Assembly (NCBI GenBank): GCA_947589485.1
Contig: CANQBK010000019.1
Coordinates: 1-32,572, forward strand
Direction: 5' to 3'
Length of the DNA stretch: 32,572 nt
Source of the DNA: an uncultured Clostridia bacterium
Lineage (GTDB): Bacteria; Bacillota; Clostridia; Oscillospirales; Acutalibacteraceae
Below the pieces are notes generated by a model. The model saw only the letters and a list, made by a program, of their open reading frames with translations, did no database searches and was not told where the DNA came from. Shown in pieces: positions 3,793-32,572 of the stretch (position 1 is its first letter; each line of letters begins with the position of its first letter). Both the position numbers and the translations under genes were made by a program.

Positions 3793-4503
3793 TTATTCAT
3801 TGTTGTTGCCTTTGTTTCCGTTTTCGTCATTTCCGTTATCGTCGGAATTTTCAAAAGATATTTCCTCTGTTTTGACCACGCCCTTTTCGTCAAATGTCCG
3901 CTCGAATATTTTATTTCCGTTGCAGTCAAAATAACGCACAACAACATTTAAATTGTTGTTATCCACACAGCTTTCCAGCACATTTACCAGTTTAGTATAA
4001 GTTTTTTGCTGACTGTCCATTGTGGATTCAAGCGTTTTCAAGAAAGCCTCAGGATATTCAAGCTCTTCATTAATCGTGCGTTCAAAAACCAGTTTTGTAT
4101 TCTTTTCCGTTTTAACACGGCTGTCAATCGGCAGGGAATTTTCGTCATCGTTTTTTTCTATATCGTCTATTGCTTCTTTGGCGGTATCCGATTTTATATA
4201 TTCGTCAAGTGTTTTATATTCTTTGACCGCCTTAATACTGCTGTCCGTATAGAAACTTGTTTCTTTTATGCTTTCGGTATTCGATTCAAGAATTATTGTT
4301 TCCGAACTATTTGTTTCGTCCGAATTTTTATTGTCTGCGGACGGCTCGTTCAAATTTTCGGAGGAGTCCGACTGTCGGGAGCTTACCGTCTGCGATTCGT
4401 GATTTGACACTTTTTTGTTTGATGTTCCATCGCAAGCTGTCATTGATATTCCGATAACGGCGCTCAATGCCAGCACGGAAATAAATGTTTTTAAATCTTT
4501 CAT
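3793..4503 (-). CDS. Lipoprotein with one DUF4854-like domain and an acidic tail
   Basis: This 236-residue protein has a lipoprotein signal (lipobox MTAC, Cys24). A Ser/Asn/Glu-rich spacer (about 27-85) is followed by one domain copy (about 94-215) that starts KTLDEYIKSD and ends VVRYFDCNGNKIFERTF. This matches the two domains of the next gene in layout. A final Asn/Gly/Glu/Asp-rich tail is unusual among the three. The ATG has an AAAGGGG site. The gene follows the Cys-rich membrane protein gene by about 25 bases, suggesting co-transcription. Function unknown; it is surface-exposed by inference. Confidence 0.8.
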   Translation of the reverse strand: MKDLKTFISVLALSAVIGISMTACDGTSNKKVSNHESQTVSSRQSDSSENLNEPSADNKNSDETNSSETIILESNTESIKETSFYTDSSIKAVKEYKTLDEYIKSDTAKEAIDDIEKNDDENSLPIDSRVKTEKNTKLVFERTINEELEYPEAFLKTLESTMDSQQKTYTKLVNVLESCVDNNNLNVVVRYFDCNGNKIFERTFDEKGVVKTEEISFENSDDNGNDENGNKGNNNE

Positions 4504-4527
4504 TAAAAAATCCCCTTTATTAAGATT

Positions 4528-4722
4528 TTATACATCTGATTTTTTAGATTTGTTTTTGTTTTCGCATTTTTTGCAGTTAAAACAATTTTCACAATCACCC
4601 CCACAGCACCCGTTGTGTCTGTTCTTTATAATATACCGTATTGCGAAAAAAAGACATACCGCAATAATAAAACATACCAAAAGCGTCGGAAAGTTAAAGT
4701 TTTCTTCAAACCATTCAGCCAA
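4528..4722 (-). CDS. FeoB-associated-type Cys-rich membrane protein
   Basis: This is a small one-TM protein. A frame from 4785 is open, but the best start is TTG at 4722, preceded by AAAGGGGAG. That gives 64 residues and the usual family layout: a short N-terminus (LAEWFEENF), one membrane helix (about residues 11-31), then a cytosolic Cys cluster with the pattern CCGGDCENCFNCKKC and a Lys-rich end. It resembles the FeoB-associated Cys-rich membrane proteins, thought to act in iron handling. No feoA or feoB is present in the window, so the role here is inferred only. Confidence 0.7.
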   Translation of the reverse strand: MAEWFEENFNFPTLLVCFIIAVCLFFAIRYIIKNRHNGCCGGDCENCFNCKKCENKNKSKKSDV

Positions 4723-4785
4723 AACAATTCTCCCCTTTAACGTACCGCAATATATATACAGATAATAAAAGTATTGAAACGTCAT

Positions 4786-5126
4786 TTAATTATCCTTTAT
4801 TTCCCGACGAAACCTTGTCATTTTTTGGTCGTACAAGACAAATTAGTAAAAGCCCGAAATACTGCCGCCGCAAATCCGTGTCGGCTCCCGTGTTTCGGTC
4901 ATTCGGGATATAAGCCCTCCGACGTTTTGATAAACAGTTCGTATTTTTGTTAATGCCCATAGGATACGCCGTTTTTATCGTTTAGTCAAGTTCCGTTATA
5001 AAATTATCGGCAGTTTTAACATATAAAGAGGAATCGAAAAAATCATTTTTATTTGGTTCGTGAACGACACGGCGGTCGGTTAAAGGTAATATGATTTTAA
5101 ATTTGAAATTGTAACGGCTTCCACGC
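4786..5126. other. 341-base gap without a gene
   Basis: This lies between the divergent Cys-rich membrane protein gene and the ilv promoter. I see no credible open frame. I also see no T-box specifier/antiterminator motif and no terminator hairpin before ilvB. It must contain the minus-strand promoter for the upstream gene, but no good hexamer pair stood out. Confidence 0.5.
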
Positions 5127-5181: not shown

Positions 5182-6801
5182 ATGATAAGCGGTGCTGAAA
5201 TAATGGTCAAGTGCCTTCAAGAGGAAGGCGTCGAAATTGTCTTCGGTTATCCCGGAGCGGTTATATGCCCGTTTTTTGACAAACTTTGCGATACGGACAT
5301 CAAAGCGGTACTCGTGAGGCAGGAACAAAATGCCGCCCACGCTGCCAGCGGATATGCAAGGGCTCTTTTAAAGGTAGGCGTATGCGTTGCAACATCGGGT
5401 CCGGGTGCGTTAAATTTAATAACAGGCATTGCGACTGCTTATATGGATTCCATACCTATGGTAGCTATTACGGGTCAGGTACGCAGCGATGTTTTGGGAC
5501 GCGATGTGTTCCAAGAGGCGGATATAACCGGTGCGTGTGAATCCTTTGTAAAACACAGCTACCTTGTAAAAAATACGGCTGATTTGCCGAGAGTATTTAA
5601 AGAAGCATTTCATATTGCCTCCACAGGTCGTCCGGGACCGGTTCTTATAGATGTTCCGGTAGATGTTCAGGAGGGTACCGTAGATAGTTTTGAATATCCC
5701 GAAAAAGTTAATATTATAGGTTACAAACCCAGTGTACACGGACACCCTATGCAGATAAAACGCGCGCTTGAAATGATAAGCAAATCCGAGCGTCCCGTTA
5801 TATGTGCAGGCGGCGGAGTTCTTACATCGGGTTCAAAGCCGAAATTCCGCGAATTTGCTCAAAAAACGAATATACCCGTTGTTTCTACAATGATGGGAAT
5901 AGGCGTTATGCCGTCGGAAGACCCATTGTATGTGGGTATGATAGGTTCTCACGGTGTAAAAGCGGCTAATATGACGATACATAATGCGGACCTTGTAATA
6001 TTGTGCGGCGCAAGAGTGGGCGACCGTGCGGTTGCTGCGCCGGAACAGGTCGCAGAACGGGCAAAAGTAATACATATTGATATAGACCCTGCCGAAATAG
6101 GGAAAAATATGAAAACGACTATCCCGATTGTCGGGGATATGAAAAATGTCATTTCTCAAATGCTCGAGGATATTGATTATACAGCGCCTGCCGAATGGAC
6201 TGAAAAGGTTTGCAAATGGGAAGAAGATTATGTTGCCAAGCCGAAAAAGTTTGACGGATTTGTGGAACCCAAGAGCTTTATTGCAAAACTGTCATCAATG
6301 CTGCGTCAAAAGGCGATACTTATTGCAGATGTAGGACAGAATCAAATATGGTGTGCAAACAATTTCAAAATGTCAGACGGTCGGTTCTTTACATCGGGCG
6401 GAATGGGAACTATGGGATATTCCGTTCCTGCGGCGGTCGGCGCAAAATTCGCAAGACCGAACCGTGACGTTGTTGCGGTCTGCGGTGACGGTTCGTTCCA
6501 GATGTCGCTTAACGAGCTTGCAACTATTGCCCAAAACAATTTGAATGTTAAAATTATAGTAATGCAAAACAATGTTTTGGGTATGGTTCACGAATTGCAG
6601 GATATTCATTACAACGGACGTTACGCCATAACGGAGCTTAGCGACGTTCCCGATTTTGGAGTAATTGCAAAAGCATACGGAATAGAATCGGCGGTTGCCG
6701 AGTCGAATGAGGACGCCGAGAAATATGCCGAAAAAATGCTGAAAAGCGACAAACCGTTTATATTGATATGCAAAGTAAATCCGAAAACGTCCTCAAGATA
6801 A
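5182..6801 (+). CDS. ilvB: Acetolactate synthase, large catalytic subunit
   Basis: This thiamine-diphosphate enzyme condenses two pyruvates to acetolactate, or pyruvate with 2-oxobutyrate, the first common step of branched-chain amino acid synthesis. Visible signatures are the N-terminal VFGYPGAVICPFFDKL region, the catalytic Glu in RQEQNAAHAASGYARA, the central FAD/DHS-like domain and the ThDP motif GDGSFQMSLNEL with downstream N-N. The frame is open from a TTG at 5155, but that lies inside the promoter -10. The ATG at 5182 behind AAAGGAGG is the real start and gives 539 residues. It is the first gene of an ilvB-ilvN-ilvC operon. Confidence 0.95.
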   Translation: MISGAEIMVKCLQEEGVEIVFGYPGAVICPFFDKLCDTDIKAVLVRQEQNAAHAASGYARALLKVGVCVATSGPGALNLITGIATAYMDSIPMVAITGQVRSDVLGRDVFQEADITGACESFVKHSYLVKNTADLPRVFKEAFHIASTGRPGPVLIDVPVDVQEGTVDSFEYPEKVNIIGYKPSVHGHPMQIKRALEMISKSERPVICAGGGVLTSGSKPKFREFAQKTNIPVVSTMMGIGVMPSEDPLYVGMIGSHGVKAANMTIHNADLVILCGARVGDRAVAAPEQVAERAKVIHIDIDPAEIGKNMKTTIPIVGDMKNVISQMLEDIDYTAPAEWTEKVCKWEEDYVAKPKKFDGFVEPKSFIAKLSSMLRQKAILIADVGQNQIWCANNFKMSDGRFFTSGGMGTMGYSVPAAVGAKFARPNRDVVAVCGDGSFQMSLNELATIAQNNLNVKIIVMQNNVLGMVHELQDIHYNGRYAITELSDVPDFGVIAKAYGIESAVAESNEDAEKYAEKMLKSDKPFILICKVNPKTSSR

Positions 6802-6851
6802 TTAAATCAAACTCCGCATAAAACGGTTATCGGCAGGTCAAGGAGAAAAAA

Positions 6852-7352
6852 ATGAAATATACACTATCGGTTCTTGTAGAAAACCACCCCGGCGTACTTT
6901 CAAAGGTTTCGGGGCTGTTTTCAAGACGAGGATTTAATATAGACAGTCTTGCGGTCGGAATTACCGAGGACAGCAACATATCACGGATAACAATAGTTGC
7001 ACACGGTGACGAGTACATAATCGAGCAGCTTGAAAAGCAGCTTAATAAATTAATACCCGTAATAAAAGTGCGTACATATACTGACGGTGAGTTCATAAGC
7101 CGTGAATTGTCGCTTATAAAGGTAAACTGCCCCGCAAAACAAAGGCTTGACATTATGAAAATTGCCGAGCTTATGGAAGCCAAAATCGTTGATGTTGCAA
7201 TAAACACAATGACGCTGCAATTTGCGGATACATTGGAGCGCTTTGAAACATTGACGGATTTGTTAAAACCGTATGGTATCCGTGAAATCGTCAGAACGGG
7301 TACGGTTGCAATCGAAAAGGATTCAGCCGCACAGCGCAAACCGACGGTTTAA
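6852..7352 (+). CDS. ilvN: Acetolactate synthase, small regulatory subunit
   Basis: This is the 166-residue regulatory partner of IlvB. An N-terminal ACT domain (VLVENHPGVLSKVSGLFSRR, about residues 6-25, then GFNIDSL) is expected to bind valine and mediate feedback inhibition. The C-terminal domain (about 80-160) matches the usual IlvN fold. The ATG follows AAGGAG. It lies about 50 bases after ilvB. Confidence 0.95.
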   Translation: MKYTLSVLVENHPGVLSKVSGLFSRRGFNIDSLAVGITEDSNISRITIVAHGDEYIIEQLEKQLNKLIPVIKVRTYTDGEFISRELSLIKVNCPAKQRLDIMKIAELMEAKIVDVAINTMTLQFADTLERFETLTDLLKPYGIREIVRTGTVAIEKDSAAQRKPTV

Positions 7353-7364
7353 CGAATTTCATAA

Positions 7365-8405
<1,041 letters not shown>

Positions 8406-8432
8406 TAATTATATATAATATAACTGTATAAC

Positions 8433-8472
8433 AAAACTGCGTGTCCATAAATTACGGACGCGCAGTTTTTTC
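8433..8472 (+). terminator. Terminator of ilvBNC (probably bidirectional)
   Basis: The arms AAAACTGCGTGTCC and GGACGCGCAGTTTT are followed by a run of T, 28 bases past the ilvC stop. The complementary strand also ends in TTTTGTTA, so it may stop transcripts from the convergent lipid operon too. Confidence 0.85.
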
Positions 8473-8484
8473 TTAAAAATGAGA

Positions 8485-8792
8485 GTTAAGGGCTCTGCCC
8501 TTAAAAACCCGCCAAAGACTCGCGCAGTGCCTGCGCTCTCAATTCGCGAAGTCGTTCGCTCCGCTCACTCTTAATTCAAACAATAAATTTCTTGACGCGG
8601 CATAAGTCAATATGATTGGAAATGATAGTTAAGGGCGCAGTGCCTGCGCCGAAACTTTTAATTTGGGCAATATTAACTAACGCCGCGCGAATGTACTTTT
8701 GGTTCTCAGTACGAGCGAACGGAGTGAGCGACAACGCGAATCGCCCGCGCCGGCTCGGCGCCGCGAATCGACAGTGCGGGCTCGGCACCGAG
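8485..8792. repeat. Composite hairpin repeat, copy 3 (two partial units in opposite orientations)
   Basis: This contains the AAGGGCTCTGCCCTT hairpin, an inverted copy of the 9-mer module (TTCGCTCCGCTCACTC), a GCGCAGTGCCTGCGC hairpin, and then a forward unit with GAGCGAACGGAGTGAGCG and GCGCCGGCTCGGCGC. It lies between the convergent ends of ilvC and the lipid operon. It overlaps the last codons of the GNAT-like gene, so the repeat supplies that gene's stop codon. Confidence 0.8.
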
Positions 8793-9872
8793 CAAAATAC
8801 TTTTTTCAAATAAAGCGTATTCGTATTTATCAATAATTAGTTGTTTGTAATATTCTCCGGAAATTTTTCCATCGTGAATTAACGCACCGACGGAACACGA
8901 CTGCCTTTTTTCAAGCTCCTTTTTTATGATTTCCGACATAGCCGAGCCAAGCCCCGGATGCTTTGAATCAATTCCCATATAAAGCGCAATATATTTTTTG
9001 TTTTTTCCGTTTTTTATTTTTAATATTTTCATTAAATTTATAATTGTTATTTTTTGGTGCGTAAGATTTTTGTAATCGGGTACGCATATAAAAAATCCAA
9101 CCAACTTGCTCTCCTTATATACGAGCTTTACAAGGTTGAAATCCAGTATATATTTAAGCCCTCTAAACATATTGAAAAAATCTTCTTCATTTATTTTCTT
9201 AAACATCGGAAAGCCTGAATATGTACGTATGAGCAGTCCGTATATCTCCCTAAGATTTTTGTTAAATGTGCTTTTTGTCGGTGACTTGATTATATAACCC
9301 GAATTTTTTATCATTTGAAGTCGCTTTATACATTTTGCGCTTTGGTCGTTTTCTGTCGGAGCCCTCATAATATTTGAAAAATATTTTTCCTTTATCTTAA
9401 ATCCCGCATCTTTCCACAAGTCCAAATAATAGGCTTTATTGTAAGGTTCGGAAGTATATACCGAGTCGAATTTGTTCGTTTTAAGTCTGTATCCTATCCA
9501 AAAAGAAGCGTTCAGCGGTCCGACAAGTTTTGTTTTTCCGTTTTTTGATGCGAGCATTTCAGATGCTTTGAAAAGACAACTACTTGCTTCGGTGCTGTTT
9601 ACGCTTTCAAAAAATCCTATATATGCGTTGGAATCGTTTTCGTAAAACGTAAGTAAACATCTGCTTGCGATTTTTCCGCTTTCATTTAAAACTATTATCG
9701 GAACGACAGTAAAATATTTGCTTAAAATATGCGAGCCGGACAAAATCTGTTTTTCCAAAACAATGTCCTGAACGTATGTGTTTTTGTGGTAAAGCATACG
9801 GGGCAGTTTTAAAAACAGTTTATTTATTTTATCGGAATTACCGAATATTGCACGATATGCTATTTTAATCAA
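8706..9872 (-). CDS. GNAT-like acyltransferase, C-terminus replaced by repeat
   Basis: This is an acyl-CoA N-acyltransferase-fold protein of up to 388 residues. It resembles a family with a GPLNASFWIGYRL core and a later YNKAYYLDLWKDAGF segment, then YMGIDSKHPGLGSAMSEII, a typical GNAT acyl-CoA-binding turn. Related proteins include bacterial lipid N-acyltransferases, so amine or lipid acylation is a reasonable guess, not a demonstrated role. The TTG start overlaps the stop of the preceding gene but its Shine-Dalgarno spacing is poor, so the start is uncertain. About 22 C-terminal residues, from GAEPALSIRG to AHSVRSY, are encoded by the composite repeat and are not family sequence. It is the last gene of the lipid operon. 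Confidence 0.65.
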   Translation of the reverse strand: MIKIAYRAIFGNSDKINKLFLKLPRMLYHKNTYVQDIVLEKQILSGSHILSKYFTVVPIIVLNESGKIASRCLLTFYENDSNAYIGFFESVNSTEASSCLFKASEMLASKNGKTKLVGPLNASFWIGYRLKTNKFDSVYTSEPYNKAYYLDLWKDAGFKIKEKYFSNIMRAPTENDQSAKCIKRLQMIKNSGYIIKSPTKSTFNKNLREIYGLLIRTYSGFPMFKKINEEDFFNMFRGLKYILDFNLVKLVYKESKLVGFFICVPDYKNLTHQKITIINLMKILKIKNGKNKKYIALYMGIDSKHPGLGSAMSEIIKKELEKRQSCSVGALIHDGKISGEYYKQLIIDKYEYALFEKSILLGAEPALSIRGAEPARAIRVVAHSVRSY

Positions 9873-12015
9873 TCCTTTTTAATATTTTTACAGTGCCGGA
9901 ATCGGCGTCAATTTCTATTAAATCTCCTGTTTTTATAATTTTTGCCGCGTCTTTCACATTGACGACAGCAGGCTTTTTAAGCTCTCTGCTGATAATTGCT
10001 GTGTGGCTTAAAACCGAGCCCCGTTCCGCCACTATGCCTTTGCATTTTTCTATCAGGAATACCCATCCGGGGTCTGTCGATTTAGTTATTATAATTTTAT
10101 CCGTAACATCAGTATCCATATTTGGGTCAAAAATTACCGCCGCTTTTCCGACAGCTTTTCCCAATGATGTTTGTGTACCGTGAAGAACCGTTGAACCCTC
10201 AAACTGTTTTTCGCAGGTTATCCTTTGATTGTCAATTATACCGTTCCCGAATACTATTCTCCTTGGCGGAGGTGATGCCCTGTACATATCAAACCGCTTT
10301 TTTCTTTCGCTGATTAATTCTTGGTATCTGTCCAATGAATTTATTTCATTTTGATATAAAAAGAAAATATCTTCTTTTTCGTCCAGTTGACTGTTTCTCT
10401 TCAAAAGTTCACCGGTCTTGAGCATAATTTCCCTTGCGAGTCCGAAAAGACGGCTCCGATTAAGTCTTGATTTCTCTCTGTTTGATATTCCGCGCTTTGC
10501 GGCTCTTATAAAAGGATTTAATACCCTCCCTGTATTTTCGTGTTCACATTTTGTCGGAATTTCAGATGATAAAATTTGCTGACGTAAAAGCTCCGGATTT
10601 GTTCTGTAAGTTTTTGTTTCTAACTTCAATTCACCGTAAATCCTGTCCCCGAACAGCTCTATATATTCGTTTTCCTTTAATCTGTATATATCGCTGTCAA
10701 TTCCCTCCTTATGTGCGGTTACACGAAGTTCGTTCATTGCGTTTACGGGCTTCATACTTTCCAAATTGTTTATGCTTGCAATTTTCCCGTTTTTCTTTCC
10801 GCCGGAAAGAGCGGTAAATATAAATGTGTAAATGTCGTTTATCAGTGTAATATCCCATACGTCTGTTACAGACTTTTCGGTTTTATGGAACAGTTCAAGC
10901 AATTCTTCCACGGTATTTGTACTTTTAATTTTTTCTTTGTATTTTGGGTAAATATCGTCAAAGTATTTGTTAAGTTTTTTCATTAATCGCGGTGTTATCA
11001 TTAAATAATATAAGAAAGATATACTTATTTTCAGCTTTAGGACTTTGTTGACTTTAAGCCTGCTTTTGGATACGCTTTTATTTTCCACACCCAGCATTTC
11101 CTGCCATATTTTAATTATTTTATTCGAGAACGGCAAAAGATGCAAAATCTCGTACCAATTGTTTATTACATAATATATGCCTCCGTGATAGTCGGTTACC
11201 ATATTTTCCGTTATTTCGTCCGCAGCTTTCAGCAGATTTTTATTTTTGACAAATCGGGATATGCAGCTGCCAAAAATATCTTTGTAAGCGTTATGCACAA
11301 AGTCCTGAGTCAAAGGCATTGTAATTCCGGGGTAGCTTTCCACAATATTGCTGTTGTCCAGAATTATGGGATTTTCGGTATTGAGTGAGGTTACGGGGCG
11401 TGCCTGAAGTATATAGATTACGCCGTTTTTTACGGCAAATTCTATATCCGATTCCTTTTTGAATATATTTTTTATTTTTAATGCAATATCGGTAAGTTCA
11501 TTTAAAATTTTGTGGTCAACGGATATGTTGCTTTTTTCTTTTAAGTAAAATAATGATTCGTCTTTGTTGTAATAATAAGTGACCGTTTCGGTTTTGTCCT
11601 CAACAACATTTTCGCCCAAGCCGTATCCTGCTGTTATTACCGATTCATTTAAAATTCCCAGCGGATTTGCGGTAAAAATCACGCCTGAAATATCGGGATA
11701 TATCATTTCCTGAATGATAACGGGGGATTTGGATAAGGAATCTGCCGATATACCCTTGTACAGCTTTTTTTGGTCGTAACTTTTTATTACGTCCAAAACC
11801 GCGTTTTTTATTTCGTCCCTTTTTACGTTAAGGATTGTTTTGAACTGACCCGCAAAGGAATTATTATCGTCATCTTCAAGACAGTATGATGACCTTACCG
11901 CAAAAAATTCGGAATTGCTGAATGACATATCAATTTCGTTTTCGCCGTTTACCGTAATGAAGTTGGGTACGTTTATTCCGTTTTCTTTTAAGATTCGCAA
12001 ATTTTTTGCTTTCAC
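9865..12015 (-). CDS. PEP-synthase-like phosphotransferase without a PEP barrel
   Basis: This 716-residue protein has an N-terminal ATP-grasp PEP/pyruvate-binding domain (about 20-225, including RSSYCLEDDD, SFAGQF and YILQARPVTS). A long middle region (about 225-620) has no recognised motif. The C-terminal mobile phosphohistidine domain carries RGSVLSHTAIISRELKKPAV, with His671 as the expected phosphocarrier. It lacks the C-terminal PEP/pyruvate TIM barrel of PEP synthase. The architecture instead matches rifampicin-phosphotransferase-type enzymes, which use ATP to phosphorylate an alcohol. In this operon a lipid or polyol acceptor is plausible by inference. The GTG start follows AAAGGGTG. 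The 3' end overlaps the next gene by eight bases. Confidence 0.8.
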   Translation of the reverse strand: MKAKNLRILKENGINVPNFITVNGENEIDMSFSNSEFFAVRSSYCLEDDDNNSFAGQFKTILNVKRDEIKNAVLDVIKSYDQKKLYKGISADSLSKSPVIIQEMIYPDISGVIFTANPLGILNESVITAGYGLGENVVEDKTETVTYYYNKDESLFYLKEKSNISVDHKILNELTDIALKIKNIFKKESDIEFAVKNGVIYILQARPVTSLNTENPIILDNSNIVESYPGITMPLTQDFVHNAYKDIFGSCISRFVKNKNLLKAADEITENMVTDYHGGIYYVINNWYEILHLLPFSNKIIKIWQEMLGVENKSVSKSRLKVNKVLKLKISISFLYYLMITPRLMKKLNKYFDDIYPKYKEKIKSTNTVEELLELFHKTEKSVTDVWDITLINDIYTFIFTALSGGKKNGKIASINNLESMKPVNAMNELRVTAHKEGIDSDIYRLKENEYIELFGDRIYGELKLETKTYRTNPELLRQQILSSEIPTKCEHENTGRVLNPFIRAAKRGISNREKSRLNRSRLFGLAREIMLKTGELLKRNSQLDEKEDIFFLYQNEINSLDRYQELISERKKRFDMYRASPPPRRIVFGNGIIDNQRITCEKQFEGSTVLHGTQTSLGKAVGKAAVIFDPNMDTDVTDKIIITKSTDPGWVFLIEKCKGIVAERGSVLSHTAIISRELKKPAVVNVKDAAKIIKTGDLIEIDADSGTVKILKRID

Positions 12016-12030
12016 TGCAATTCACCCTTT

Positions 12031-12939
12031 TTAAATTTTGCCGAAAATCAAAAAAGCAATAATAGTCAATATCATAAGTGATTCCTGTATGTAAGTGTAC
12101 CTTTCGACTTTATCGACTATTTTATATTTTGTCGGGTCTTTTTTAAATTCAATAAACTTGACGCTCATCCAAAGCACGTTTACCAAAAGCAGGAGTACGG
12201 CTATTTTATTTAAATTCCATACAAGAATAAGATTTGTTATAATATCGACCCACGTCAATACAAAAACAAAATTTGTAGCTTTTTTATAGCCGAACAGCTT
12301 TGAATAGGTCACATATTCGGTTTCGTCCTTTGGAGCTCTTATTTTTCTGGATACTTCCCAAATAAGCGCAGGAAAGTAAAGCGTAAATGCGGCAAGAATA
12401 TTTGTAAGGTCTATTGCCGTGATGCCGTACTTTATTACGGTGAATGATATGATATAAATATTCATAATCATTTGAACGGGATTATGTGTTACCAACGCTT
12501 TGGGAAGTGACGATTGAATTTTATGCTTTTGAAAGAACCATACCGCCATAAGCGAACCGTATGTATATAAGAATATACAGAAGATAAAATTATTCATAAA
12601 CAAAAGATTTATGATTAAAGTAAAGGCTATTAAAATGCTTACAAATACGGCAAGGTCTTTTTTGTGTACCCTGCCCGATGGAAGCGGTCTTGAAGCAAAA
12701 AGCCGACAGTCCAACTCGTAGTCTTTGAAATCGTCGGCTATACGAAGCCAGCAAAGGAAGCTGAACACCGTAAACGCGCAGACAACTTCCTGAATACCTA
12801 TGTCAAATTTTGTTACGCCGTGGTTTAAAAGCACAACAAAATATATTTCCGAAAATACCAGCGCACCCAAAAACAGCCTCGGTAAAATCGGGTACATTTC
12901 TTTAAAATATATATTTAACCTTTTAAGAGCCGCAGTCAA
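12031..12939 (-). CDS. UbiA-family membrane transferase with altered second motif
   Basis: This is a polytopic protein of about 302 residues, mostly hydrophobic helices. The first Asp-rich motif, ADDFKDYELDC (Asp69, 70, 73, 77), followed by RPLPSGR, is the metal/diphosphate site of UbiA prenyltransferases. The second Asp motif expected near residue 200 is replaced by EVSRKIRAPKDETEYVTYS, which has Arg, Lys and Glu in its place. Family members attach prenyl chains to aromatic or glyceryl-phosphate acceptors in the membrane; the substrate here is unknown. The TTG start follows AGGTG and overlaps the psd gene by 17 bases, implying coupled translation. Confidence 0.8.
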   Translation of the reverse strand: MTAALKRLNIYFKEMYPILPRLFLGALVFSEIYFVVLLNHGVTKFDIGIQEVVCAFTVFSFLCWLRIADDFKDYELDCRLFASRPLPSGRVHKKDLAVFVSILIAFTLIINLLFMNNFIFCIFLYTYGSLMAVWFFQKHKIQSSLPKALVTHNPVQMIMNIYIISFTVIKYGITAIDLTNILAAFTLYFPALIWEVSRKIRAPKDETEYVTYSKLFGYKKATNFVFVLTWVDIITNLILVWNLNKIAVLLLLVNVLWMSVKFIEFKKDPTKYKIVDKVERYTYIQESLMILTIIAFLIFGKI

Positions 12940-13783
12940 TTATTTCACCTATCCTTTCACCGATTACAACCTTTGTTTCAATATTGTTTTTGCTGTTTTC
13001 CAAAATATCTCCGTCTATTTTTATTTTGTCTTTTATCAAAACTATTATGGTAGAGCCGCCGTATTCAAAGTATCCCTTTTCGTCCAGCTTTGAAAATTCG
13101 CTTATGGGACGGTTTCTAATACACCCCACAAGAAGTGCGCCCACCTCAACGGTTATAACCTTTCCGAGTGTTTCCGTTTCAAGGACGGAAACCTCTCTTT
13201 GATTTCTTACAAAAACCTTGTATCGTGATGATATGGGTCTTACCGTGTGGAGAAGCCCGCGTATACGGTAACGTCGGAGGTATCTCCCACTGTCTATAAA
13301 GCAATATCTGTGATAATCGGATACGGATAATCTGAATACAAGACAATATCCGTTTTCAAACTGTTTTAAATCCTGTTCCGTTTTTAAAATTTCGTTTAAT
13401 GTATAGACGCTGTGTTTTATGTTGAGCCTTAAATTTTCATCTATTCTGTAAACCGACAGCTTTGAGTCTGCAATTGCGACAAGCTCATTTTGTGATGATG
13501 TGTTTTTAATCGTTCTTTTTCTTATGAAAAAATCGTTGAAACATTTATAGTTTTCATTATAGTATGTCATATCTATGTTATATTTTTTTATAAAAGGAAT
13601 TATATCTTTTTTGCTTGCCGTACTTTTCATATAAATGGCTCTGATTTTTGAAAAATACGGTCTTGCCGCAACGAGTTTCAATATTATACGTCCCGTTACT
13701 GTGTTGTAAAGAAAGTCGAGCGCACCCTCTTTATATTCGTTTTCACATATTATTTTTTTTGTTTTTCTGTCGTAAATGTTCAT
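12923..13783 (-). CDS. psd: Phosphatidylserine decarboxylase proenzyme
   Basis: This is a pyruvoyl enzyme that converts phosphatidylserine to phosphatidylethanolamine at the membrane. The 286-residue proenzyme has the self-processing residues: Asp in AIADSKLSV, His in SVSDYHRYCF, and the cleavage site in EYGGST, where the Ser becomes the pyruvoyl group of the small alpha chain. GGST rather than LGST is common in Gram-positive enzymes. The ATG follows TTAGGAAA, eight bases after pssA. It sits between pssA and the UbiA-like gene and presumably acts on the PssA product. Confidence 0.93.
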   Translation of the reverse strand: MNIYDRKTKKIICENEYKEGALDFLYNTVTGRIILKLVAARPYFSKIRAIYMKSTASKKDIIPFIKKYNIDMTYYNENYKCFNDFFIRKRTIKNTSSQNELVAIADSKLSVYRIDENLRLNIKHSVYTLNEILKTEQDLKQFENGYCLVFRLSVSDYHRYCFIDSGRYLRRYRIRGLLHTVRPISSRYKVFVRNQREVSVLETETLGKVITVEVGALLVGCIRNRPISEFSKLDEKGYFEYGGSTIIVLIKDKIKIDGDILENSKNNIETKVVIGERIGEIIDCGS

Positions 13784-13791
13784 TGTATTTC

Positions 13792-14409
13792 CTAAAAAAC
13801 TATAATCAGCGTTATTAAAGCGATTGCCAATATTCCGAATATAATATAAAATATGCCCCTTGGTTTTGGAATGTCAATATTCAATACAAATAGAACTCCT
13901 AAAACAAAATATGCCGCAGGCAGAACCGATTTGAGAAGCGAATCTCCCAAAAAAACATACAGGCACGGAATAATCAACGCCGAATATGTTACAGGAAGTC
14001 CCTTGTATGTATTATCGAATTTTTCAGTGTTTATATTGAACCACGCCAATCTGTTTATACCGCATAGAACATAAAATGCGATTATCGTAAAAACCAAAGC
14101 CCAATAAGGATTTGATTTACCGCAAATAAAATAAAGAAGTACCGAGGGGAAAACAAGAAATGAAACAACGTCCGCGAGCGAATCTATTTGTACTCCGAAC
14201 TTTTTTTGAGTTTCATTTCTTTTGCATTTTCTTGCGATGGCACCGTCAAACAGGTCGCATATACCCGCGAGAATAAGGCAGATAACGGCAATGTCGGTTT
14301 GACTTATATATTCGTTTTCCGCAGTGAAAATAAGACTGCATATTCCGAACAGCGACAGAGCCGTACCGAGGTATGTCAAAATTACAGATTTGTTAAAGCA
14401 GCCTATCAT
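13792..14409 (-). CDS. pssA: CDP-diacylglycerol-serine O-phosphatidyltransferase (PssA type)
   Basis: This is an integral membrane CDP-alcohol phosphatidyltransferase of 205 residues with about six hydrophobic segments. The catalytic motif reads DGAIAR followed, after 11 residues, by GVQIDSLAD. The usual gap is eight residues, so three are inserted. The GVQIDSLADVVSF and YKGLPVTYSA segments are characteristic of serine-specific (PssA) members. It is expected to exchange CMP for serine on a CDP-activated lipid. The start codon directly abuts the stop of the cytidylyltransferase gene upstream, and psd is next, so activation, serine transfer and decarboxylation are encoded in order. Confidence 0.9.
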   Translation of the reverse strand: MIGCFNKSVILTYLGTALSLFGICSLIFTAENEYISQTDIAVICLILAGICDLFDGAIARKCKRNETQKKFGVQIDSLADVVSFLVFPSVLLYFICGKSNPYWALVFTIIAFYVLCGINRLAWFNINTEKFDNTYKGLPVTYSALIIPCLYVFLGDSLLKSVLPAAYFVLGVLFVLNIDIPKPRGIFYIIFGILAIALITLIIVF

Positions 14410-14991
14410 TTAAAAATTTCTCCTTATTTTTATTTTGAAAAGAACCGCATTTATTACAATATGTGTTATCCCGCCAAGGGCGATATAACCGAGGTACTTT
14501 AAAAAGGAAATGCCCGAAAAGAAATAAATAACAGCCATAACGCCTATGAGAGAGTCTATTTGGTCGGCAATGAAAAAAATCAGCCCGATAGGGGAAAAGA
14601 CAGTTTTTCCCGGTTCAATGTTCAGCCTTCTTTTAACAAAGCTGTTCGGCAGTTCAAAAAGCATATATGTAAGACCGAAAAGGAACCCTATTAAAAGGTT
14701 ATAGACAAAGCTGTTGTCATATATGCCGTAAAGCTCGTTATGTGATTCAAGTCCGGTTTGTTTTAAAATAAAACCGAAAATAATTTGTGTCAGGATACAA
14801 AAAAAAATCATGGAAAAGAACCCTATCCATGTTTTATTTTTACCGAAAATACGTTTACCGTCCGAAAGGCATTTGCCGCGGTCTATCGGTGAGCAGTGCC
14901 GCTTATAAAATTTTGTTTTTGTAAAAATCATATTTAAAATTCCGGACGCTATTACCGGCAATGCGGTTACATACATATCGAGTATCAGCAC
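14410..14991 (-). CDS. CDP-archaeol-synthase-like lipid cytidylyltransferase
   Basis: This polytopic protein of about 193 residues resembles CarS/CDP-archaeol synthase more than ordinary CdsA. It has SPIDRGKCLSDGKRIFG then KNKTWIGF near the start, NSFVKRRLNIEPG in the middle, and ADQIDSLIG, the CdsA/CarS signature, near the end. The family uses CTP to activate a lipid phosphate to a CDP-lipid. The best start is GTG at 14991 behind AGGAAGG, overlapping the stop of the DgkA gene as GTGCTGA. Upstream in-frame codons to 15048 lie inside dgkA. Whether the substrate is phosphatidate or an ether/prenyl lipid cannot be told from sequence. Confidence 0.8.
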   Translation of the reverse strand: MLILDMYVTALPVIASGILNMIFTKTKFYKRHCSPIDRGKCLSDGKRIFGKNKTWIGFFSMIFFCILTQIIFGFILKQTGLESHNELYGIYDNSFVYNLLIGFLFGLTYMLFELPNSFVKRRLNIEPGKTVFSPIGLIFFIADQIDSLIGVMAVIYFFSGISFLKYLGYIALGGITHIVINAVLFKIKIRRNF

Positions 14992-15341
14992 AGAACAGCC
15001 CTTCCTATAAAAATAAATTCGGCGGTAAAGAAAACCGCTCCCCAACAAAGGACCGAGCCTGCGGCAATATCTTTTATCAATTTTATTTTCGGGTCCTTGT
15101 CTGTGGTGATTTTATTACAAATATGTTCAATGGCGGTGTTTGTACATTCGCTTGAAAATACTCCGAAAGTGGCTGTAAATTGAAAAATATAGCAGTAAAA
15201 ATCGACCCTCACCAAAATATTGACTAAGAGGAAAACAAGAGTTACAGCCAGATAATAAGCATAATTTTTTTCCGTTTTCAGGGCGTATGCAAAGCCCCTT
15301 ACGGCGCATACAACACTTTTAAAAAACGTTTTGTTTTTCAC
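14985..15341 (-). CDS. dgkA: Diacylglycerol/undecaprenol kinase family protein
   Basis: This 118-residue protein has three membrane helices and the DgkA core: TNTAIEHIC (helix 2 glutamates), then KLIKDIAAGSVLCWGA. The family phosphorylates diacylglycerol or undecaprenol with ATP at the membrane. The Asp usually found just after the NTAIE helix is Asn here. The GTG start at 15341 follows AAAGGA at good spacing. It is the first gene of the seven-gene lipid operon and has a promoter at 15396-15424. Placement directly before a lipid cytidylyltransferase suggests it supplies the lipid phosphate. Confidence 0.85.
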   Translation of the reverse strand: MKNKTFFKSVVCAVRGFAYALKTEKNYAYYLAVTLVFLLVNILVRVDFYCYIFQFTATFGVFSSECTNTAIEHICNKITTDKDPKIKLIKDIAAGSVLCWGAVFFTAEFIFIGRAVLC

Positions 15342-15395: not shown

Positions 15396-15424
15396 ATTAT
15401 AGCACGGTAAATCGAATAAATCAA
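15396..15424 (-). promoter_or_regulatory. Promoter of the lipid operon
   Basis: On the minus strand TTGATT and TATAAT are 17 bases apart, about 55 bases upstream of dgkA. No other promoter of similar quality was seen between the seven genes, and most of their junctions overlap or abut. Confidence 0.65.
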
Positions 15425-15482: not shown

Positions 15483-16004
15483 TTATTTTACCTCCTGTTC
15501 CAGATTATTGAAATAGTCGGTATCAAAAAATTCGGTAAGTGTGATACCTAAACCGTCACACAGCATTTTTATGGTGGACAGCTTTGGATTTTTGCTTTTG
15601 CCGTATAAAATATTGTTTATTGTTCCTGTCGGGACCGAGGTAATGTTTGTCAGCTTATATATTGCAACATTGTTTGTTTCGCAAAGCTCCAATATTCGGT
15701 ACTTGACTGCGGTTACCGTATTTACCGCAAGCCCTTTTTTGCTCTTTGGAATTATTTTTGTTGATTTTTCGCATTTGGTGTTTTTGTTAAATTCGGGTAT
15801 GTCAAAAAATTCCGCAAGAGTTATGTCCAAGCCGTCGCACAGCATTTTGACGGTAACTATTTTCGGATTTTTACTCAGTCCGTATATAATATTTTTCAGT
15901 GTTGTCGGAGGAACTGCCGATATGTTTGCTAATTTGTTCACAGTTATATTTTTTGCCGCACAAAGCTGTAAAAGTCGGCTGCTTATGACTTTAATCATAT
16001 CCAT
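15483..16004 (-). CDS. Tandem-HTH (XRE-like) transcriptional regulator
   Basis: This 173-residue protein is made of two copies of the same helix-turn-helix domain. The first (about 5-70) contains PPTTLKNIIYGLSKNPKIVT and ends CDGLDITLAEFFD. The second (about 98-165) contains VPTGTINNILYGKSKNPKLS and ends CDGLGITLTEFFD. A basic linker with KSKKGL joins them. The pattern is that of small XRE/Cro-type repressors, duplicated in one chain. There is no sensor domain. It is divergent from the SLOG gene, and the region between them carries direct repeats that could be its operator. It could equally regulate the lipid operon downstream. The start is the first ATG, with a weak ribosome site. Confidence 0.8.
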   Translation of the reverse strand: MDMIKVISSRLLQLCAAKNITVNKLANISAVPPTTLKNIIYGLSKNPKIVTVKMLCDGLDITLAEFFDIPEFNKNTKCEKSTKIIPKSKKGLAVNTVTAVKYRILELCETNNVAIYKLTNITSVPTGTINNILYGKSKNPKLSTIKMLCDGLGITLTEFFDTDYFNNLEQEVK

Positions 16005-27190: not shown

Positions 27191-27222
27191 TTGTATTCCG
27201 AAATTACGAAACGTAAAAAATA

Positions 27223-27412
27223 GTTAAGGGCTTTGCCCTTAAAAACCCACCAAAGGCTCCGCCTTTGGAAACCGCAAGCCTTTGAAAAGGCTTGACCGAA
27301 ACTTTTGACTATGGTTACATAAACTTATTGCGCGCGAACGTACCTATTGTTTGCAGTAAGAGCGAGCGGAGCGAGCGACAACGCGAATCGCCTGCGCCGG
27401 CTCGGCGCCGCC
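27223..27412 (+). repeat. Composite hairpin repeat, copy 5 (forward)
   Basis: The order is AAGGGCTTTGCCCTT, AAAGGCTCCGCCTTT, AAGCCTTTGAAAAGGCTT, ACCGAAACTTTTGACTATGG, GAGCGAGCGGAGCGAGCG with ACAACGCGAAT, and GCGCCGGCTCGGCGC. The module order is the same as in copy 1. Confidence 0.85.
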
Positions 27413-27597
27413 AAAGGCTCCGCCTTTGGAATCCGCAAGCCTTTGAAAAGGCTTGAGCGAAACTTTTAATTATGGATACATTAACCTGTTGCGCGCGAAC
27501 ATACTTATCGCTTTCAGTACGAGCGAACGGAGTGAGCGATAACGCGAATTGAGAGCGCAGGCACTGCGCCGCGAATCGCCTGCGCCGGCTCGGCGTG
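27413..27597 (+). repeat. Composite hairpin repeat, copy 6 (forward)
   Basis: This is directly joined to copy 5. It starts at the AAAGGCTCCGCCTTT hairpin, carries the variant GAGCGAACGGAGTGAGCG with ATAACGCGAAT, and ends with GCGCAGGCACTGCGC and CTGCGCCGGCTCGG. The copy 5/6 pair mirrors the copy 1/2 pair: both pair a GAGCGAGCG unit with a GAGCGAACG unit. The rest of the gap, 27598-27831, shows nothing I can assign. Confidence 0.8.
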
Positions 27598-27831
27598 TTC
27601 TTTTTCCAAGATGTTTTGACAGATTATAATACCTAAAAAGCAAAATAAGAACCGACCGTTTGATTCGGACGATTGGCTATGTAAAAGCAAAAACAAACAG
27701 AAATAGGGCGGAACGGAAATGTATCCGAAAAAATGGCCTGTATTGTTGTGAATGTGCAAAAAATCATTTTTATCCCAAAGTCAGTGAAACAGTTTTAAAT
27801 ATCATTACTTTTGTAATATTATGAAAGTGAC

Positions 27832-30649: not shown

Positions 30650-32287
30650 GTGAAATTGCTAAAAAGAGCCTCAGTATTTGCTGTTACAGCAGCTATGATG
30701 TTAGGCACGGCCGCAATGCAGGCGTTTGCAGCATCGACCTATGAACAAAATGGTATTCATGCTGAACTGTCAACTTATAAGCAGGAATATACTGAAAATG
30801 AAAATATTTCCGCGTTTATACAAATAAAAAATATTACCGGTGAGCCCGTTAAAAATGTTAATGTTGTGCCGGTGATTCCCGATGGTTACAAACTTGCTGA
30901 TGATTCAGCTGAAATTTTAAAGAAGGAGCAAAATAGAAATTTAGTTGAAGGAATGGCCTTCGGTATGGTCCTGACATTTGAGCCTATCTCTGAGGAAAGC
31001 AGCCAACCGGAGGAAAGCAGCGAACTTGAAAGCAGTCAACCGGAGGAAAGCAGCGAACCTGAGAGCAGTCAACCGGAGGAAAGCAGTGAACCTGAAAGCA
31101 GCCAACCGGAGGAAAGCAGCAAACCTGAGAGCAGTCAGCCCGAGGAAAGCAGCAAGCCTGAGAGCAGCCAACCCGAAGAAGGCAGTAAGCCGCCTGTAGA
31201 AAACAGTAAGTCCGGGGGCAATATACTCGTAGAAAGCAATAAACCTCAGAGCAGTACAATTGAGGGCAAAGCAGCAAATGACCAAACTGTTAATACCGGT
31301 GATAACGATATAGCACTTATTATTTTCGGTATAGTAATGCTCGGTTCGGTAGTATTAGTATTAGCAACATTAAAGACAAAGAAAGGCAGAAAGCTGTTTT
31401 CTATCCTTTTGAGTGTTGCACTTATCGGCAGTGTTGCTGTTATAGTACCGCTCGATATATATGCCGCAGCTCCTGTTGAAAAGAATATTCAGCTTGATAC
31501 CGAGGTTTCAGTCAACGGTAATACAGTACCAATAATATTTAATATTAGTTTTACAACCGAAGAAGAAGATCAGAACCTTGTTACTATTTCCGGTAAGACT
31601 GTCGGTGAAAACGACGAGCCGCTTGATGCAGTAAAAGTCACAATATATGATGCTGACCATAACACTATTGACAGCGTGGATACTGCAGAGGACGGTACAT
31701 ATTCTTTTGAAGTTTCCTGTGATAACAATACTACCTTTACGCTGGATTTTGTAAAGGACGGCTATGTAACTCAGTCTAAAACAATCATTGATGTTGCGGA
31801 AGACCGTACTGTGAATGTAAAATTATATAATGAAGCGATTACTCAATCATACTCACAATATTTTGTGTTAGAGCCTGTTGTATCGAGTAAGGGTGACCAG
31901 TTAATAAATGAGTACGGTATAATGCTTATCACTAACGAAGATGCCGTTATTGAAAAGTGCGCCGTATATATGGAATATGTAGATGGCGAATGGGAGAGAA
32001 CAATGGCATTTGTCGGTGATAATATCACATCTGCTCTATATGTACCGTATCTTGCGTATGACGATGTTATATATTATGACGGTATTAACACCTCCGATAT
32101 AAATATATTTAAAATGATTCCGGATTCTGACGGTATTTGGAGCAGCGATGGTATATATACTTTGCATGGTGCAAATATTGATGATAAGGACGGCAATTAT
32201 CTGACGCTGAGATCGAAGGACGTTGTCGGAAGAAACGTTAGGATTTTCGACGATTTGTCAAAAATGAAGGAATGGCTTCTTTCATAA
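30650..32287 (+). CDS. Exported surface protein with SQPEE repeats, internal membrane hairpin and carboxypeptidase-regulatory-like domain
   Basis: This is a 545-residue protein; the GTG start follows AAGGAGG. A Sec signal peptide (residues 1-27, ending QAFA) precedes an Ig-like N-terminal domain (about 30-112). Then come six copies of an 11-residue Ser/Gln/Pro/Glu repeat (117-182), a sortase-like NTGD (215-218), a membrane helix (221-240), basic KTKKGRK, and a second hydrophobic helix (249-272) ending YAAA like a signal peptide. Beyond this are a beta-rich segment, a carboxypeptidase-regulatory-like domain (about 311-393: ISGKTVGENDEPLDAVKVTI, DGTYSF) and a C-terminal domain of about 150 residues that I do not recognise. 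If both helices insert, both flanking parts lie outside the cell. Function unknown; adhesion or wall interaction is a guess. Confidence 0.85.
   Translation: MKLLKRASVFAVTAAMMLGTAAMQAFAASTYEQNGIHAELSTYKQEYTENENISAFIQIKNITGEPVKNVNVVPVIPDGYKLADDSAEILKKEQNRNLVEGMAFGMVLTFEPISEESSQPEESSELESSQPEESSEPESSQPEESSEPESSQPEESSKPESSQPEESSKPESSQPEEGSKPPVENSKSGGNILVESNKPQSSTIEGKAANDQTVNTGDNDIALIIFGIVMLGSVVLVLATLKTKKGRKLFSILLSVALIGSVAVIVPLDIYAAAPVEKNIQLDTEVSVNGNTVPIIFNISFTTEEEDQNLVTISGKTVGENDEPLDAVKVTIYDADHNTIDSVDTAEDGTYSFEVSCDNNTTFTLDFVKDGYVTQSKTIIDVAEDRTVNVKLYNEAITQSYSQYFVLEPVVSSKGDQLINEYGIMLITNEDAVIEKCAVYMEYVDGEWERTMAFVGDNITSALYVPYLAYDDVIYYDGINTSDINIFKMIPDSDGIWSSDGIYTLHGANIDDKDGNYLTLRSKDVVGRNVRIFDDLSKMKEWLLS
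30998..31195 (+). repeat. 33-bp coding tandem repeat, six copies
   Basis: Six 11-codon units encode SSQPEESSEPE and close variants (Leu or Lys at one site; the last unit is degenerate). At DNA level the units are similar but not identical, with Ser and Gln codons varying, so the array is fairly old but could still change copy number. Confidence 0.9.
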
Positions 32288-32411: not shown

Positions 32412-32572
32412 GCGCAGTGCCTGCGCCTTGAGCGAAACTTTTAATTTGGGCTAAAATAACTTATTGCGCGCGAACATACTTATTGTTTGCAGTACGAGCG
32501 AGCGGAGCGAGCGATAACGCGAATTGAGAGCGCAGGCACTGCGCCGCCAAAGGCTCCGCCTTTGGAATCCGC
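32412..32572 (+). repeat. Composite hairpin repeat, copy 7 (runs off the window)
   Basis: This begins with GCGCAGTGCCTGCGC and continues through the ACTTTTAATTTGGGC spacer, GAGCGAGCGGAGCGAGCG with ATAACGCGAAT, GCGCAGGCACTGCGC and AAAGGCTCCGCCTTT. It is cut by the window end, so its true length is unknown. Confidence 0.85.

Follow-up and report, generated by a model that had tools for sequence, protein, structure and literature searches.

Closest described systems

Lipid pathways with exchangeable heads are already known, and the steps by which a head would be installed (kinase, CarS, PssA and Psd) follow the established enzymology of these families. The described systems closest to the present locus are the archaeal phospholipid pathway, bacterial PE synthesis (CdsA, PssA, Psd), the phosphotransferase Rph, and betaine-lipid synthesis by BtaA (DUF3419). 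Like the archaeal pathway, the operon combines a CarS-family enzyme, a serine transferase with a decarboxylase, and a UbiA-superfamily transferase whose predicted fold is nearest to MjDGGGPS. Unlike that pathway, it contains an extra kinase, a phosphotransferase (PPS1) and an acyltransferase (GNAT), it lacks the second Asp motif of digeranylgeranylglyceryl-phosphate (DGGGP) synthase, and no convincing GGGP synthase was found in its genome. Serine transfer and decarboxylation, with the only Psd of the genome, recall bacterial PE synthesis, whereas a CarS-type enzyme in place of CdsA, a dedicated kinase and the linked UbiA, PPS1 and GNAT genes set the operon apart.

PPS1 resembles Rph in pairing an ATP-grasp domain with a C-terminal phospho-His domain and in lacking a PEP-binding domain, but its N-terminal lobe is shorter, it scores below the NCBIfam Rph cut-off and it sits in a lipid operon. 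In three distant loci (L023, L024 and L025) the PE head genes give way to a BtaA-like gene next to a similar core, whereas the stretch analyzed here has no BtaA-like gene. The parts are already known; the combination is new within the open literature searched, that is, open-licence PubMed Central papers, a set to which most subscription papers do not belong and in which no description of the operon was found.

Organization of the operon

The window is the whole stretch of DNA that was analyzed, 32,572 nucleotides of contig CANQBK010000019.1 from an uncultured Clostridia bacterium. The tight minus-strand run of seven genes (15341-8706) that the initial annotation had described was confirmed, each gene lying at the coordinates given there. 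The DgkA and CarS genes overlap, CarS and PssA abut, and PssA and Psd are 8 nt apart; Psd and UbiA overlap by 17 nt, UbiA and PPS1 are separated by 15 nt, and PPS1 and GNAT overlap by 8 nt, so that no gap in the operon exceeds 15 nt. The arrangement is not due to chance, because the same gene order recurs in many genomes.

Upstream of DgkA, a promoter-like site, TTGATT-17-TATAAT with TG before the second hexamer, lies at 15396..15424 on the minus strand as a consensus match. The region holds 37 such sites where shuffled sequence gives 27.0 on average (sd 5.2), no clear excess; at counts this near the shuffle level, it is position alone that favors this site as the candidate promoter. Just upstream of the operon, on the same strand, a regulator-like protein with two tandem Cro/C1 HTH domains is encoded at 15483-16004.

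Motif patterns found the catalytic motifs intact in the window proteins. In the relatives, the typed patterns were matched by 87/87 UbiA, 82/85 PPS1, 11/11 PPS2, 46/47 Psd and 36/38 PssA frames. Those for DgkA (14 of 35 frames) and GNAT (47 of 77) were too narrow to be very informative, and the GNAT pattern missed even the protein of the window.

Distribution and gene order in relatives

UbiA was detected in 2 of 60 relatives searched, namely the genome of the window and one of 36 other genomes of the same genus. In a class-wide sample, family matches occurred in 11 of 391 genomes, seven of them full length at more than 380 bits. A phylum-wide search with a wider UbiA profile matched 9 of 398 genomes, and the genome of the window was the only clear carrier, the other eight scoring 24-37 bits; among 72,556 plasmid records there was no match. 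A scan of named genomes returned 330 relatives, and the best 80, ranked by similarity to the UbiA of the window, were kept. These 80 come mostly from gut, rumen and mouth, belong for the most part to Lachnospiraceae, Oscillospiraceae and unclassified Clostridia, and include Roseburia inulinivorans, Oribacterium (among them the oral Oribacterium sinus) and the oral Lachnoanaerobaculum. Cultured carriers include the rumen isolates Lachnospiraceae bacterium NK4A144, MC2017 and KH1P17, as well as Oribacterium sp. P6A1. Together with seven others they make up the 87 loci compared below, in which some species may be shared between both sets and whose proportions, owing to selection by UbiA similarity, are not proportions in nature.

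The exact gene order of the window is present in 19 of the 87 loci, a conservation whose absence, by the initial annotation, would have counted against its proposal. A further 6 have this order with an AMP-ligase before GNAT, and in 7 the PPS1 and GNAT genes have moved to the front. PPS1 accompanies UbiA in all 87 loci, in most as a direct neighbor, while GNAT is present in 79 and the AMP-ligase in 28. The eight loci without GNAT in the stretch compared include L048, L066, L070 and L091, which stop at a contig end, and in the genome of L021 GNAT lies on another contig. The loci thus form a modular set with a core of UbiA, PPS1 and tandem GNAT, often with the AMP-ligase, and with exchangeable head parts. 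Beside the core stand DgkA-CarS-PssA-Psd, as in the window, or kinase and CarS alone, a BtaA-like enzyme, or nothing. Loci free of PssA and Psd or of the ligase number 60 of 87, and consequently no locus holds every module; it is only the relatives that reveal the exchange of kinase, the frequency of the AMP-ligase and the swap of head group.

CarS is present in 72 of the 87 loci, always with exactly one of two kinase candidates: DgkA without PPS2 in 61 and PPS2 without DgkA in 11, with no case of both or neither. PPS2 is a second Rph-like protein whose ATP-grasp domain is complete, and its distribution suggests that it does the job of DgkA; CarS would then act on a lipid alcohol that had been phosphorylated. 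Twelve loci with 5.1 kb or more of sequence ahead of UbiA lack CarS, and neither kinase was found in them; UbiA and PPS1 are retained in all 12 and GNAT in 11.

On a UbiA tree of 85 rows, which leaves out L076, L081 and L096 because they offered no suitable UbiA frame, the PPS2 rows form a basal grade with 2 changes, and the three labels together need 6. The tree thus reduces the kinase swap to one or two events, and the 72 of 72 are not 72 independent observations. The head states (PssA-Psd, CarS only, none) require at least 12 changes, or 11 when L106, L099 and L079, which are cut by contig ends, and L073, which is not, are set aside. PssA and Psd are missing from 23 of the 72 CarS loci. The congeneric genome G002 falls in the PPS2 group, whereas the window groups with loci from rabbit gut and other Lachnospiraceae (five rows, support 99/89), a placement that suggests horizontal transfer.

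Proposed pathway

The loci themselves show conserved and linked genes, exchanged modules, intact catalytic motifs and the folds; we infer the reactions, their sequence and the kind of chains, relying for the core on linkage and fold. On balance we favor a pathway of modular build that is dedicated to a non-canonical membrane lipid, in which the core would build a lipid alcohol and the head module would add an ethanolamine-type head. UbiA would transfer a chain, most likely a prenyl chain, from its diphosphate to an acceptor, and PPS1 would phosphorylate, through its phospho-histidine, either the product of UbiA or one of its substrates. GNAT may acylate, aided in many relatives by the AMP-forming ligase, to leave the lipid alcohol as core product. 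This alcohol would be phosphorylated by DgkA, or in other genomes by PPS2, as diacylglycerol is in ordinary bacteria. CarS would convert the phosphorylated alcohol to a CDP-lipid, to which PssA would add serine, and decarboxylation by Psd would yield the ethanolamine lipid. In favor of this pathway count the joint occurrence of UbiA and GNAT, the kinase beside every CarS, the loci that retain the core without head genes, the repeated changes of head state, the BtaA-like protein beside a core, the cdsA and second dgkA outside an operon that carries the only Psd, the fold of UbiA and the HMG-CoA-reductase neighbor in L027. Against it weigh the few events behind the kinase swap, the lack of the second Asp motif in UbiA, the variation of PssA, Psd and ligase among the loci, and the single further carrier among 36 congeneric genomes.

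A wider proposal is tentative, and stands clearly short of an even chance: a new lipid class in Clostridia of gut, rumen and mouth, in which a mixed prenyl/acyl lipid alcohol from a new type of core would carry lineage-specific phosphoethanolamine, other CDP-derived or BtaA-type betaine-like heads. This core would combine a tandem GNAT with an Rph-like phosphotransferase and with a UbiA whose second motif reads E-xx-RK, and either DgkA or another phospho-histidine enzyme would serve as the lipid kinase. If the favored pathway is right, a set of common gut and oral Clostridia would make an uncharacterized membrane lipid with enzymes like those of the archaeal pathway. Module exchange would then predict the head group genome by genome, as well as an Rph-like enzyme serving as lipid kinase. 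A function would also be gained for the PRK13592 prenyltransferase family and for one branch of the proteins that currently carry the name PEP synthase.

Head genes and possible ordinary PE synthesis

The operon copy of the DgkA-type lipid kinase (14985..15341, minus strand) scores 73.6 bits with PF01219, and the genome has a second dgkA on contig C50 (120.9 bits, against 73.2 for the operon copy in the own-genome profile search). The gene for a CarS-like CTP:lipid-phosphate cytidylyltransferase follows at 14410..15048 (minus strand), with a true start probably nearer 14990, the relatives aligning from residue 15-22. With 56.5 bits for PF01864 (cut-off 22) it is a CarS-type CDP-lipid synthase as in the archaeal diether phospholipid pathway, at 68.3 bits below the cut-off of 148 for PRK04032. 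The initial annotation had left room for this gene being the sole CDP-lipid synthase of the organism; a canonical cdsA (172.2 bits) lies on another contig, and so it is not. Canonical-level cdsA matches were found in 12 of 13 genomes searched, and the exception is a genome 79% complete.

The CDP-alcohol transferase (13792..14409, minus strand; PF01066 53.8 bits) retains the motif DGAIAR...G..ID...D. Its NCBIfam scores are 98.6 bits for archaetidylserine synthase and 96.5 bits for pssA, near-equal and both below cut-off, so that sequence cannot choose between the two. The phosphatidylserine-decarboxylase-type enzyme (12923..13783, minus strand; PF02666 139.8 bits) has the GGST pyruvoyl cleavage motif of bacterial PE synthesis.

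These genes could also serve to make ordinary PE from recycled diacylglycerol through DgkA, CarS, PssA and Psd, with UbiA, PPS1 and GNAT making an unrelated product from the same transcript. That the operon Psd is the single Psd match in the genome speaks for this explanation, as does the fact that, among three CDP-alcohol transferases, only that of the operon has a PssA-type score, and this score favors neither bacterial pssA nor the archaeal family; the other two (150.6 and 115.8 bits with PF01066) look like PgsA-type enzymes. Among 8 genomes with a PE-type operon, six have one Psd and two have two. However, the operon uses a CarS-type enzyme although a separate canonical cdsA exists, and head genes and core are linked across many genomes, the PE genes lying with the core in 52 of the 85 tree loci. 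Ordinary PE synthesis with an unrelated core is accordingly considered unlikely.

PPDK_N matches occur at only two places in the genome of the window, a PPDK-sized protein on contig C5 and PPS1, from which it follows that PPS2 is absent there. Of the seven PPS2 genomes, four have one dgkA match elsewhere and three have none.

The phosphotransferase PPS1 and possible prenol salvage

The core gene PPS1 (9865..12015, minus strand) encodes an Rph-like ATP-grasp/phospho-His phosphotransferase, with 113 bits for PPDK_N and 75.9 bits for PEP-utilizers. Its best PDB sequence matches (E 3.3e-78) are 5fbs and 5hv2, which are filed as phosphoenolpyruvate synthase and which we take to be rifampin phosphotransferase (Rph). 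Both parts of the Rph type, the ATP-grasp domain and the phospho-His domain with its catalytic His (H671), are present, and the N-terminal lobe is shortened; the score with the NCBIfam Rph model NF041857 is 158.2 bits, below the cut-off of 999. K2, R41, E47, D48, D190, E192, Q204, R206 and H671 are invariant in 43 rows, which fits a working pair of ATP-grasp and phospho-His domains. A true PEP synthase (PpsA) was rejected, since Pfam gave no match to the PEP-binding C-terminal domain and the TIGR01418 score is 146.9 bits against a cut-off of 739.75. This corrects the earlier description of the protein as PEP-synthase-like.

PPS1 might instead make the (di)phosphate of a free prenyl alcohol, for instance a diet-derived one such as phytol, which UbiA would attach to a lipid acceptor. 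The constant pairing of UbiA and PPS1 would agree with such a salvage route, as would the many named carriers that are gut or rumen Clostridia, and the pyrophosphoryl-histidine intermediate through which PEP-synthase-type enzymes proceed would suit it. Carriers from the mouth (Lachnoanaerobaculum, Oribacterium sinus), however, meet little phytol, and no uptake gene was recognized, so that salvage appears improbable beside the dedicated lipid pathway.

Some loci are irregular around PPS1. In Roseburia inulinivorans DSM 16841 it is split into three frames (L057:10920-13035), and in L071 (10891-14246) about 3.3 kb of other frames lie between UbiA and PPS1, direct neighbors in related loci. In Lachnoanaerobaculum (L082:3284-4381 and 10971-12068) a DegT-type aminotransferase overlaps the start of PPS1, and a UDP-galactopyranose-mutase-like gene follows UbiA.

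The UbiA-superfamily transferase

The UbiA-superfamily transferase (12031..12939, minus strand) is encoded by a core gene and belongs to the PRK13592 'prenyltransferase' family, with 422.5 bits against an NCBIfam cut-off of 443; its Pfam score with PF01040 is 28.0 bits, under the cut-off of 34.2. By the initial annotation, grouping with menaquinone enzymes would have counted against its proposal. The eight NCBIfam families matching it at E up to 1 include neither MenA nor 4-hydroxybenzoate UbiA, and its AlphaFold model (mean pLDDT 87.6) is closest to the archaeal MjDGGGPS structures 7bpu and 6m31, the sole two matches with E <0.001, so that this refuting result did not occur; the protein has the predicted fold of a DGGGP synthase.

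The first Asp motif, D-x3-D, is present (D69 and D73 in 47/47 rows). The second motif of MjDGGGPS comprises D183, D187 and D190 (PMC9385802). No D-x2/3-D-x2/3-D other than the first motif was found in UbiA, and the loop matched to it by eye has E195, R198, K199, P203 and E206 in 47/47 rows. A pattern search also found the Y-x5-K motif of DGGGP synthase absent; Y127 and K140 are invariant, yet 13 apart.

Archaeal lipids proper, which the initial annotation had already held not to be implied, were rejected for lack of a convincing GGGP synthase. In the genome of the window (100% complete, 160 contigs) PF01884 reached 22.2 bits over 51 of 226 positions, under the cut-off of 23.9. The G1P dehydrogenase model PF13685 is over-broad, matching 12/12 genomes and 13/14 controls, with an own best of 52.1 bits over part of the profile. 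Despite the fold, archaeal-type diether synthesis in a bacterium, with UbiA as DGGGP synthase and an archaetidylethanolamine-like product, is very unlikely, as the PcrB/GGGPS matches in 12 genomes were all partial (best 25.2 bits, covering 47-52 of 226 positions), E195..R198-K199..P203..E206 stands in place of the second Asp motif, and a kinase before CarS would be needless if UbiA acted on phosphorylated glycerol as DGGGPS does.

The tandem-GNAT acyltransferase

No family model matches the last protein of the operon (8706..9872, minus strand). Its AlphaFold model (mean pLDDT 94.7) has a tandem GNAT fold, consistent with the acyltransferase that had been proposed. About the last 29 residues of the frame (359-387) come from a dispersed repeat present elsewhere in the genome.

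Above 400 bits, the GNAT profile matches exactly those 7 of 391 class genomes in which UbiA scores above 380 bits; it then falls to 100 bits, with 75 more genomes at 18-100 bits (82 altogether). Among 17 stretches around GNAT matches, those with weak matches had no neighbor in common except GNAT itself, the BtaA-type locus L176 apart. In genome G367 the GNAT gene is on a separate contig from UbiA.

The initial annotation had placed N-acylation of the ethanolamine head as the last step. This was set aside: GNAT remains beside UbiA and the phosphotransferase in the BtaA-type loci and in 11 of the 12 loci that have no head genes and 5.1 kb or more of upstream sequence. The core lipid is thus its most likely substrate, and N-acylation of the head is less likely.

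Distant loci and the nature of the chain

L023, L024 and L025 contain a UbiA-like gene, a PPS, GNAT and a ligase (incomplete in L023) together with a DUF3419/BtaA-like protein (225-229 bits), and CarS, PssA and Psd are not among the genes found in them. Their core is only distantly related, with UbiA 22-29% identical. A further protein of these loci, cl8, was considered as a relative of phytol and dolichol kinases through a motif that we take to be shared with them. It was not used: PF01148 gave a sub-threshold 16.8 bits (E 0.0067) in one genome, profile comparison was weak (probability 8.4%), and Pfam and NCBIfam gave nothing useful.

In L178 a PPS, a BtaA-like gene and two ligase-like genes accompany a half-length UbiA-like frame (4293-4796, 167 aa), which has only the first Asp motif and overlaps the PPS. 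L027 has CarS, PssA, PPS and a UbiA-like gene beside an HMG-CoA reductase fused to an ecdysteroid-kinase-like domain (6131-8902). With neighbors part-scanned against the family library, no isoprenoid gene besides this fusion was recognized in the loci. A prenyl chain on the lipid alcohol, proposed because of the UbiA fold and this one distant neighbor, is a real possibility that falls a little short of an even chance. L178:1290-2342 resembles the fusion (24% identity, E 2e-21), probably in its kinase part.

Repeats in the window

A dispersed repeat family occupies 120-580, 8478-8789, 27214-27674 and 32427-32572 of the window, in copies 60-100% identical. One copy provides the GNAT gene with its final residues and stop codon; contig C65 also carries related sequence. 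About five copies of a 33-nt tandem repeat lie at 30962-31191, within a long frame at 30650-32287.
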